Of a DNA stretch of 64,000 nt, positions 44,616-64,000 are shown in pieces. The notes below the pieces were generated by a model. That model worked only from the letters and a program-made list of their open reading frames with translations, had not been told where the DNA came from and searched no databases. The number at the start of each line of letters is the position of its first letter. Within the stretch, counting starts at the first letter, position 1. The position numbers and the translations under genes are program-made. The stretch comes from Halorussus salinus. Lineage in GTDB: Archaea; Halobacteriota; Halobacteria; Halobacteriales; Haladaptataceae. The DNA lies in the NCBI RefSeq assembly GCF_004765815.2, contig NZ_ML974129.1, positions 225,538-289,537 on the forward strand. Reading direction: 5' to 3'.

Positions 44616-45638
44616 TTACAGTTCGAGGTCCCGAATCGCCACGCAGTCGCCCTCGCGGACCTCGCCGATAATCCGGCCGTCGGTCTCGTCGGCCAGCGAC
44701 TCGGCGTCGTCTTCGGGGAGCGCGACGACGAAGCCGGTGCCCATGTTGAACGTCCGGTGCATCTCCTCGTCGCCGACGTTGCCCTCCTGCTGGACGAACT
44801 CGAAGACCGGTTGGGCGTCGAACGGGTCGGCGATTTCGTAGCGGAACTCGCCCATCCGTGAGAGGTTGGTCCATCCGCCGCCGGTGACGTGGGCCGCGGC
44901 GTGGACCTCGCGGCCGCGCAGGTGGTCCAGCAGGTAGGTGTAGATGCGCGTCGGTTCCAGCAGGACCTCGCCGACGGAGCGAGGTTCGGTCTCGTTTCCG
45001 TCGCCGTCCTCCTCGTCGCTCGCGGCTCCGCTGGCGTCGAGCGGGAAGGGGTCGCCGTACTCGTGGTTTCGCGTCGCGGCCTCCCGCGCCAAGGTGAGTC
45101 CGTTAGAGTGGATGCCGCTGGAGGAGAACCCGACCAGCGCGTCGCCGACCTCGGCCTCGCCGGGGAACACGGCGTCTTTCGGCGCGAGACCGACGCACGC
45201 GCCCGCCAAGTCGAGTCCCTTGATGACCTCGGGCATCACGGCCGTCTCGCCGCCGACCAGCGCGATACCGGCCTCGTCGGCACCGGCGGCAAGTCCGTCG
45301 CCGACCTGCTTCGAGAACTCCTCGCTCGGCTCGTCCACCGCGAGGTAGTCCACGAACGCGACGGGTTCGACGCCCGAGGCCAAGAGGTCGTTGACGTTCA
45401 TGGCGATGCAGTCGATGCCGACCGTCGAGTAGTCGCCCAACGCTTCGGCCACGAGGAGTTTCGTGCCCACGCCGTCGGTCGCCAGCGCGAGGTAGCGGTC
45501 GCCGATGTCGAGCAGTCCCGCGTACTCGCTCTCGTCGATGTCGCCCACGGCACCGACTAGCGCCGCGGTCGCGGCCTCGCTGGCCTCGATGTCCACTCCT
45601 GCGTCCGCGTAAGTGAGTTCCTCCTCGTCTTCGGTCAT
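44616..45638 (-). CDS. purM: Phosphoribosylformylglycinamidine cyclo-ligase
   Basis: 340 residues. PurM makes aminoimidazole ribotide from formylglycinamidine ribotide with ATP, the fifth step of purine synthesis. The family is clear: TYADAGVDIEASEAA, GVGTKLLVAEALGDYSTVGIDCIAMNVNDL, EPVAFVDYLAVD, GLAAGADEAGIALVGGETAVMP, SSGIHSNGLTLAREAA and GGGWTNLSRMG near the end. An acidic insertion (DEEDGDGNETEPRS) is seen, typical of haloarchaeal enzymes. No other purine genes lie beside it. Confidence 0.95.
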   Translation of the reverse strand: MTEDEEELTYADAGVDIEASEAATAALVGAVGDIDESEYAGLLDIGDRYLALATDGVGTKLLVAEALGDYSTVGIDCIAMNVNDLLASGVEPVAFVDYLAVDEPSEEFSKQVGDGLAAGADEAGIALVGGETAVMPEVIKGLDLAGACVGLAPKDAVFPGEAEVGDALVGFSSSGIHSNGLTLAREAATRNHEYGDPFPLDASGAASDEEDGDGNETEPRSVGEVLLEPTRIYTYLLDHLRGREVHAAAHVTGGGWTNLSRMGEFRYEIADPFDAQPVFEFVQQEGNVGDEEMHRTFNMGTGFVVALPEDDAESLADETDGRIIGEVREGDCVAIRDLEL

Positions 45639-46188
45639 GGTGAGACGGGCGGGTCGCGCGAGTAAAATTCCACCGTTTGCGCGTCGGGAGAGGGATGGCT
45701 CCGGATTCTATCGACTCTTCGACTCGGCGCGCGCGGGCGGACCCTCGTGGTCCGGCACGTCGTGCGAGGGACGACCGACGCGACCGCAGGGAGCGAGGGA
45801 GGAGGGTGGGGAGGACGAGGTGCGGTTAGCGGCATGATTTGCTCAAGCCTGAAGCTAGCTTCTTCGTCCAACCGTCTCGTTCTGCAATGTGGCCGAACAG
45901 GAGCGCGATTCCCTCTTCGAAAGCCCCCGCCCGCTCGCGGTCGCTCGGCGACATCTCCTCCGCTCGCGGTCGCTCGCTCCGGAGAGCGGTCGCTGAGACG
46001 ACCACGGGTCTCCGACCCGCGAGCGGGCGGCCCCTTTATCCCATCCCGCGGTTCGTCGCGTCGAGCGTTCGCTTCGGTGGTCCGTGTCACCGAGCGCGTT
46101 TCGGTTGGCTCGAAAGTCGGTCTCCTCTCCACGTTCCTACCAGCTATCGCCCACAGTACTCTTTGCCGAATCGACCGGAAAACGGTAC
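45639..46188. other. Intergenic region with copy of a 125-nt structured element
   Basis: 550 bases without a convincing gene. It contains the palindrome GAAGCTAGCTTC at 45851-45862 and the structured element at 45916-46040. Frames across it encode Arg/Pro-rich peptides without protein-like composition. The last 100 bases lead to the PRC-barrel-like gene. Confidence 0.55.
45916..46040 (-). repeat. Structured dispersed element, copy A
   Basis: Read on the minus strand it starts gataaaggggccgcc and ends gggggctttcgaa, about 125 nt. The two ends can pair: GAAAG-like start with CTTTC, and CCGCCCGCTCGCGG with CCGCGAGCGGGCGG (14 bp, 45927-45940 with 46017-46030). Inside is a hairpin CGGGTC-GGA-GACCCG and the conserved GTCGTCT. 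Two related copies occur at 56501-56624 and from 63918; the latter shares a long aligned stretch with this copy. Confidence 0.6.
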
Positions 46189-56500: not shown

Positions 56501-56624
56501 TTCGAAAGCCCTCGCGGTCCTCGCGGTCGCTCAACGGGATATTTCGCCCGCGCAGAACTGCGCGGGCGAAATAAGGCCGCGTTGAGACGACTAAATGAAC
56601 GCGAGGCCCGCTCGCCCTTTCAGT
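56501..56624 (-). repeat. Structured dispersed element, copy B
   Basis: Read on the minus strand it starts actgaaagggcgagc and ends gagggctttcgaa, about 124 nt, in the gap between the FKBP gene and the sulfite-oxidase-like gene. The start GAAAG pairs with the end CTTTC, and CCTCGCG pairs with CGCGAGG. Inside are the conserved GTCGTCT and a strong stem ATTTCGCCCGCGCAG / CTGCGCGGGCGAAAT with a two-base loop (56541-56572), itself flanked by CTCAACG/CGTTGAG. Confidence 0.6.
56541..56572. repeat. 15-bp perfect inverted repeat with two-base loop
   Basis: Arms ATTTCGCCCGCGCAG and CTGCGCGGGCGAAAT flank AA, forming a nearly loopless stem. Outer arms CTCAACG (56530-56536) and CGTTGAG (56580-56586) extend the pairing around it with a bulge. 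It lies inside copy B of the dispersed element and is the largest difference between copies A and B, so it looks like a swapped stem module. Confidence 0.8.
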
Positions 56625-56713
56625 CCGCCGAGGGATGCGGTTTGTTCCACCGGTCGAAACCGGTCGGTAGATGCGCGTATCTGAGCATCAGAATCGAAAT
56701 CAGAAGAGAAGAG

Positions 56714-63827: not shown

Positions 63828-64000
63828 CGAGTGCAGGCGTCGATTTTCCGCCGAAGGAGCGCTATCAAACCGAACTAAGGGGGCGGCAGGCCGACCAAAC
63901 CACCGTCGTCTGGGTGGACTGAAAGGGGCCGCCCGGTCGCGCCCGAAGGGCGTAGTCGTCTGAGTGACCCCTATCCGGAGCGAACGCAGTGAGCGGAGGA
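63828..64000 (+). repeat. Structured dispersed element, copy C (cut by window end), in a gene-free tail
   Basis: After the KaiC-like gene there is no further gene. From 63918 (actgaaaggggccgccc) to the last base the sequence aligns with copy A over about 83 bases: shared AAAGGGGCCGCCCG, GTCGTCT and ATCCGGAGCGA...GAGCGGAGGA. The variable hairpin is CGCCC-GAA-GGGCG here and CGGGTC-GGA-GACCCG in copy A. The preceding bases (gggggcggcaggcc, 63890-63903) can also pair with ggccgcccgg. The right end lies outside the window. Confidence 0.6.

Follow-up and report, generated by a model that had tools for sequence, protein, structure and literature searches.

A structured sequence between purM and a small open reading frame of Halorussus salinus is one member, copy A, of a real and undescribed family of repeats. 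The reading that we prefer, and to which we give about even credence, is that copy A belongs to a dispersed, non-autonomous, structured DNA repeat that derives from a plasmid locus and folds as one strand. Short non-autonomous repeats whose movers are unknown are a recognized open question in haloarchaea. The present family is tractable in this respect, with 0 to 112 copies within one genus and with orthologous sites that are empty, filled or decayed, and a conserved plasmid locus beside a gene for a single-strand-DNA-binding protein supplies a candidate partner. The family is also a clean natural case in which to ask whether stem co-variation comes from selection or from template switching, and the answer affects the reading of covariation as proof of RNA function.

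A covariance model, R1, was built from 26 copies and located three copies in the window, i.e., the whole stretch of 64,000 nucleotides that was analysed (Table 1). The repeat folds through a short helix, GAAAG:CTTTC, two facing GGG tracts and a stem of 11-13 bp into a three-way junction, from which two variable hairpin arms extend. Read along the sense strand, phased boxes are followed by GTTTGGGTGG, ACTGAAAG, GGG, stem P1 and hairpin P2, and then by the long P3/P4 arm with its one bulged base, P1', GGG, CTTTC and an AT-richer tail. The core comprises ~122 nt in copy A and 105-150 nt across copies, and the facing GGG tracts, which are unpaired, are invariant in all 26 copies. The initial annotation had described copy A as having pairing ends on the minus strand, the hairpin CGGGTC-GGA-GACCCG and GTCGTCT, and copy C as having the hairpin CGCCC-GAA-GGGCG; all of these were found as described. 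As RNA, copy A has a predicted folding energy of -75.1 kcal/mol (z = -3.3 against dinucleotide shuffles); for the better conserved copy C, z is -5.0. The two polarities of copy A fold comparably as single-stranded DNA (z = -3.2 for the minus strand and -3.8 for the opposite strand). In the potassium-rich cytoplasm, we conjecture, the foot of the hairpin could adopt a G-quadruplex built from the four conserved G-tracts (GGG, GG, GGGG and GGGGG).

Table 1. Positions in the window of the three repeat copies, the parts of copy A and its neighbouring genes
Feature	Position	Strand	Remarks
Copy A, core of the structured repeat	45916..46037	minus	R1 match 45918-46050, 118.3 bits
5' foot, AAAGGGG	46031..46037	minus	AAAG of helix P0 and first GGG tract; invariant in 26 copies
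P1, 5' arm, CCGCCCGCTCGCG	46018..46030	minus
P2, variable hairpin, CGGGTC-GGA-GACCCG	46005..46019	minus	Two bases shared with the end of P1
P3, 5' side, GGTCG-T-CTCAGCGAC	45989..46003	minus	T is bulged
P4, variable apical hairpin	45954..45985	minus	TCTCC...GGAGA in copy A; TATCC...GGATA in the majority of copies
P3, 3' side, GTCGCCGAG-CGACC	45939..45952	minus	One A-C mismatch in copy A
P1, 3' arm, CGCGAGCGGGCGG	45927..45939	minus
3' foot, GGG-CTTTC	45919..45926	minus	Second conserved GGG tract and 3' side of P0 (CTTTC, 45923-45919), followed by GAA
Upstream phased repeats	46051..46120	minus	Two RCGCTCGRT-type boxes, GCGCTCGGT and ACGCTCGA, ~28 nt apart
purM	44616..45638	minus	Neighbour of copy A on one side
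Small open reading frame	from 46189	plus	Neighbour of copy A on the other side
Copy B, divergent copy	56503..56634	minus	59.4 bits; between the 3' ends of two converging genes
Copy C	63908..64000	plus	Truncated at the end of the window; the complete copy scores best against the model in the genome

The stems co-vary strongly. Among the host-genome copies, two-sided changes occur at 24 of 39 pairs and 95.6% of the cells are paired, a result reached by none of 500 shuffles, in alignments that lean to the model structure and are partly fitted to the sense strand, which favours G-U. The first alignment, which was built without structure, gave the same picture (18 two-sided pairs, 94.9% paired), and sliding the partner by one base lowered pairing to ~40%. 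The covariation lies far above a phylogenetic null: when sites evolved independently along the copies' own tree, the mean was 7.5 pairs and the maximum 13, against 22 of 34 pairs observed. Combinations of G-U exceed those of A-C in the stems (24:12 and 44:21, or about 2:1 in rows that are not independent), a modest strand asymmetry.

The family extends well beyond the window. The covariance model counts 51 copies in the host genome and 0 to 112 in each of 17 sister species, the highest numbers (112 and 110) in two species and the lowest (1 and 0) in two others; a survey count of 57 means at least 57, and the 112 and 110 come from a separate count. A 20-base motif, GGGTGGACTGAAAGGGGCCG, is common to the named Halorussus records, and R1 also matches Haladaptatus, Haloarcula, Halovenus, Halomarina and Halobacterium, so that the recurrence between haloarchaeal genes mentioned in the initial annotation is borne out. 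With 51 genome copies and covarying stems, the two outcomes that it had named as arguing against a structured family, no covariation or no further copies, are both contrary to what was found. It knew no name for the repeat, and none occurs in the sources searched: Rfam 15 has no match in the window and none to the element at four loci (E up to 1), no paper on Halorussus repeats was found in the literature, and a search with the letters of the motif returned chance matches only. The closest genome copy to copy A is 91% identical over the core, and the median core difference between host-genome copies is 26%; the host genome is thus without very recent copies. A second structural class keeps the outer frame, but its inner part is rod-like and contains AAGCACCG...GGAGCGCAGCGA; 14 of the 22 pairs predicted for this class show two-sided change.

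Comparison of orthologous sites suggests both gain and loss. Site C2:199753 is filled in G000, where 332 bases stand against 14 unaligned bases in G013 and 6 in G005, from which we take the whole unit to be ~300 bases. No element is present at site B in G005, G009 and G013. Site C retains the upstream repeats and the feet in G009, where the hairpin is deleted, and is a decayed remnant in G004. The element at site D is present in G000, G009 and G005 and partly decayed in G004; in G013 the hairpin is gone and repeat-like sequence remains. Site C2:183417 is common to G000 and G005, with different hairpins. The hairpin-less and decayed sites imply that losses occur, and that loss explains at least part of the low copy number of G013. 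The clean empty sites of sister species fit the suggestion of a dispersed non-autonomous mobile element, one of three made in the initial annotation. The flanking target-site duplication that it proposed to look for was not seen at the five sites compared, where the boundaries are imprecise and the ends are not fixed to the base.

A search for a mover yielded no enzyme. An IS200/IS605-type mobiliser was rejected, as the counts of PF01797 (Y1 transposase) do not track copy number; this family has no match in G001, G002, G003, G009, G010 and G016, each with at least 35 copies. When 616 neighbouring proteins were clustered, no transposase cluster appeared; the largest clusters were, by inspection, ordinary host paralogues, and the sole recurring plasmid neighbour was a gene similar to replication factor A (the RPA-like gene). 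A viral origin was also rejected, with no phage match and a single IMG/VR contig bearing a related element without an RPA-like gene. On that predicted viral contig (IMGVR_UViG_3300019926_000173; L358, 6910-7015), one second-class element lies in 10 kb. An analogy with AAV-like terminal repeats concerns shape only, the element not being located at replicon ends.

Upstream of the core, boxes resembling RCGCTCGRT or RCGCTCGGT recur at about -22, -50, -74, -102 and -130 from the model start, in a 28-nt phase. At least one such box lies within 150 nt upstream of 44 of the 51 copies, as opposed to 6 of 51 in the downstream control. According to a rough gene caller, 43 of the 51 copies are intergenic (13 convergent, 24 tandem and 6 divergent), typically with 60-130 nt to the next gene. 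In the host genome, all 51 copies lack both a TATA-like box in the 60 nt before the element and an oligo-T run immediately after it. A cis-regulatory leader or terminator was rejected, since every gene orientation occurs; together with the missing TATA-like box and oligo-T run, this argues against both a separate RNA gene and a cis-regulator. The processing site that had also been suggested finds no support here, as the copies show no bias towards any gene orientation. No significant bias of orientation with respect to the replication strand was seen along four chromosomes or genomes (best p 0.07), and a lagging-strand preference was rejected with the non-significant orientation runs in these four.

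On plasmids of Haloarcula and Haladaptatus, the element sits upstream of a divergently oriented gene whose product is an OB-fold protein weakly similar to replication factor A. This protein was searched for in 59 genomes and the loci were scanned; the element or its frame is present at 17 of the ~29 loci of the RPA/OB-fold gene family. Where the element stands beside the RPA-like gene, which is the case in several families, the two are always divergent, with a spacing of 375-541 bp (15 measured). The RPA-like gene also occurs at loci without the element, and neither the Halovenus plasmids nor the viral contig showed it in the vicinity of the element. Between the RPA-like gene and the element lie ~300 nt that are conserved and foldable (L302, L291, L296, L303, L288 and L279-L283), with two-sided change at 9 of 46 predicted pairs, a G-U:A-C ratio of 19:6 and no Rfam match; this region is possibly a larger structured RNA or an origin. 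A large palindrome adjoins the RPA-like gene beside this conserved region. The plasmid locus is probably the older setting of the element, and the spread would have run from there to the chromosome. The RPA-like gene as cause of the chromosomal spread was rejected, for G008 carries this gene without any R1 copy.

A model of the family along these lines would begin at the conserved plasmid locus, from which it is probably derived, a related element lying there ~0.4-0.5 kb upstream of the RPA/OB-fold gene. A protein may bind the phased boxes and the folded single strand (the GGGTGGACTGAAAGGGG strand) while the DNA is single-stranded, and such binding could drive copying or moving of the element into new intergenic sites; the element would most likely be moved and kept in trans. 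Its perfect stems would be maintained in part because the fold is needed and in part through template switching from one arm to the other. Derivation beside a gene for a single-strand-DNA-binding protein makes DNA replication or plasmid upkeep the likely original function. Several observations stand against a DNA element. No mobilising enzyme was found, and the Y1 transposase is absent from six species with at least 35 copies each. In addition, no target-site duplication was seen (the exact ends not being fixed), the host genome has no very recent copies, and four genomes show no orientation bias with the replication strand. The excess of G-U over A-C of ~2:1 suits RNA at least as well as single-stranded DNA.

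The main rival, rather unlikely in our estimate, takes the family as a putative structured non-coding RNA, with transcription of the drawn strand and a three-way junction that functions at the RNA level. The plasmid element would then form the 3' domain of a longer structured RNA, encoded next to the RPA-like gene, and would afterwards have been copied round the chromosome. The strong covariation is consistent with this, as are the further ~300-nt foldable region at the plasmid locus and the excess of G-U, both in the stems and in that region. Two Haloarcula plasmid loci, moreover, carry TATATAAA on the same strand as the element and 256-258 nt upstream of it. However, no TATA box of this Haloarcula type was seen at the plasmid loci of Halorussus and Haladaptatus, and promoter and terminator signals of the kind sought are missing from all 51 chromosomal copies. 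In addition, two sister species have only 0 or 1 copies, Rfam offers no match, and the alignments are partly fitted to the drawn strand, which itself leans towards G-U. A bolder proposal, which we consider unlikely, is that the RPA/OB-fold protein and a structured RNA or DNA of ~500 nt form an undescribed plasmid machine, whose terminal three-way-junction domain was released and attained more than 100 chromosomal copies in some species.

A previous study documented that template switching between hairpin arms produces compensated changes at several pairs at once, for which no selection on the product is needed (PMC8794818). Two observations in the present family resemble such events. At site D, which is orthologous in G000 and G009, four adjacent P1 pairs differ on both arms, while the P3/P4 hairpins barely differ and the matching flanks share 89-94% identity. 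Among copies less than 15% different, 104 double changes stand against 27 to or from G-U, or about 4:1 in counts that are not independent. Because template switching may partly cause it, stem co-variation alone is no proof of selection. The initial annotation took the paired changes as the mark of a selected structure; the covariation stands, and the proof of selection is withdrawn in view of the block at site D and the excess of double changes. From these and the documented mechanism, the stems appear to be maintained by both need for the fold and mutation bias, in unspecified proportion. If template switching were the main cause, the family would consist of old hairpins that spread in the past, have no function now and decay by deletion of hairpins, as at site C in G009 and in short forms with P1 and P2 only. 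We regard this as quite improbable: conservation extends to the unpaired GGGTGG...GGGG and GGGGG tracts and to the phased boxes, which template switching leaves unaccounted for, several families retain the arrangement with the RPA-like gene, and G-U exceeds A-C on one strand. The least probable of these alternatives is a plasmid-derived site of the replication-origin or partition type, with boxes that bind an initiator, a hairpin for nicking or priming and chromosomal copies as spread or decoys: five of six large Haloarcula, Halovenus and Haladaptatus plasmids carry exactly one element (the sixth carries two), the position beside the RPA-like gene is conserved and phased boxes adjoin the hairpin, as in known origins, but more than 100 chromosomal copies in two species are unlike origin behaviour, orc1/cdc6 is not nearby at the loci examined, and element and RPA-like gene each occur without the other.

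The preferred DNA repeat may be compared with elements already described. SMR-A of Haloquadratum walsbyi (HqIRS42, 43 and 55) is ~110 bp long with prominent inverted ends, makes no target duplication and reaches up to 54 copies per genome with no transposase and a mobiliser that is not known (PMC3119063). Copies of SMR are commonly more than 95% identical, and they insert into palindromes belonging to PATEs and IS605 elements (PMC3119063). The present repeat is similar in its core of 105-150 nt with pairing ends (GAAAG:CTTTC and the 11-13 bp stem), its many copies and the lack of a known mover, but differs from SMR-A as described in its median core difference of 26% and its covarying stems. 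No palindromic target of the SMR-A type was noticed, a point on which there was no systematic search; most copies (43 of 51) are intergenic. PATEs are IS605-related, short, non-coding, hairpin-bearing elements with many haloarchaeal copies and no target duplication, which possess two near-terminal palindromes and no inverted ends (PMC3119063). The present repeat, too, is short, non-coding, hairpin-bearing and present in many haloarchaeal copies; unlike in PATEs, its two ends pair together, and the Y1 transposase does not track its copy number.

In bacteria, REP/BIME sequences with RAYT transposases form dispersed extragenic hairpins with covarying stems and up to ~100 copies. Dispersal outside genes and covarying stems are shared with the present repeat, which is, however, much longer, with a three-way junction and phased upstream boxes, and has no Y1-type enzyme in six high-copy species. 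As defining features of SMR-A, PATEs and REP were tested and not found, the repeat was assigned to none of them; it is best read as an undescribed family among the short non-autonomous repeats of haloarchaea. The origin of pleolipovirus SNJ2, described along with Rep-Arvir, contains a simple hairpin of ~22 nt downstream of the Rep gene (PMC13107129). Both are haloarchaeal DNA hairpins adjoining a protein-binding site (putative in our case), and the fold of the SNJ2 hairpin is needed; in contrast, no Rep gene neighbours the present repeat.

Several further arrangements were observed. Head-to-head inverted pairs, whose 5' ends face each other at distances of 18-450 nt, are numerous in Haloarcula, Halomarina and other species. 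In those 18-20 nt apart (L195, 3658-3917; L122, 2682-2936; L198, 196-441; L172, 3070-3311; L221, 4517-4766), a weak inversion is apparent in the outer flanks as well. At L219, L085, L077, L163, L177 and L186, the final 20-30 nt of the element (..GCGGGGGCTTTCGAG) recur 50-75 nt downstream, which in some loci is a tandem duplication with the tail. Short forms with feet and main stem and without the P3/P4 arm occur at L253, L161, L202 and the purM site of G015 (L094). Halorussus and several Haloarcula carry different element classes in what is apparently the same gene neighbourhood (L196 and L228, L166, L201, L128, L186), where the neighbour, named by eye from its sequence, is a probable cobalamin-biosynthesis methyltransferase. 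Adjoining copy A, at ~45705-45870 of the window, is a second GC-rich dispersed repeat, GGCGCGCG...GCGAGGGACGAG...GGTGGGGAGGACGAGGTGCGG...CTAGCTTC; sequence resembling it is present in G002, G003 and G011, at their purM sites, and in Haladaptatus and Haloarcula, where it flanks the element on the 5' side.
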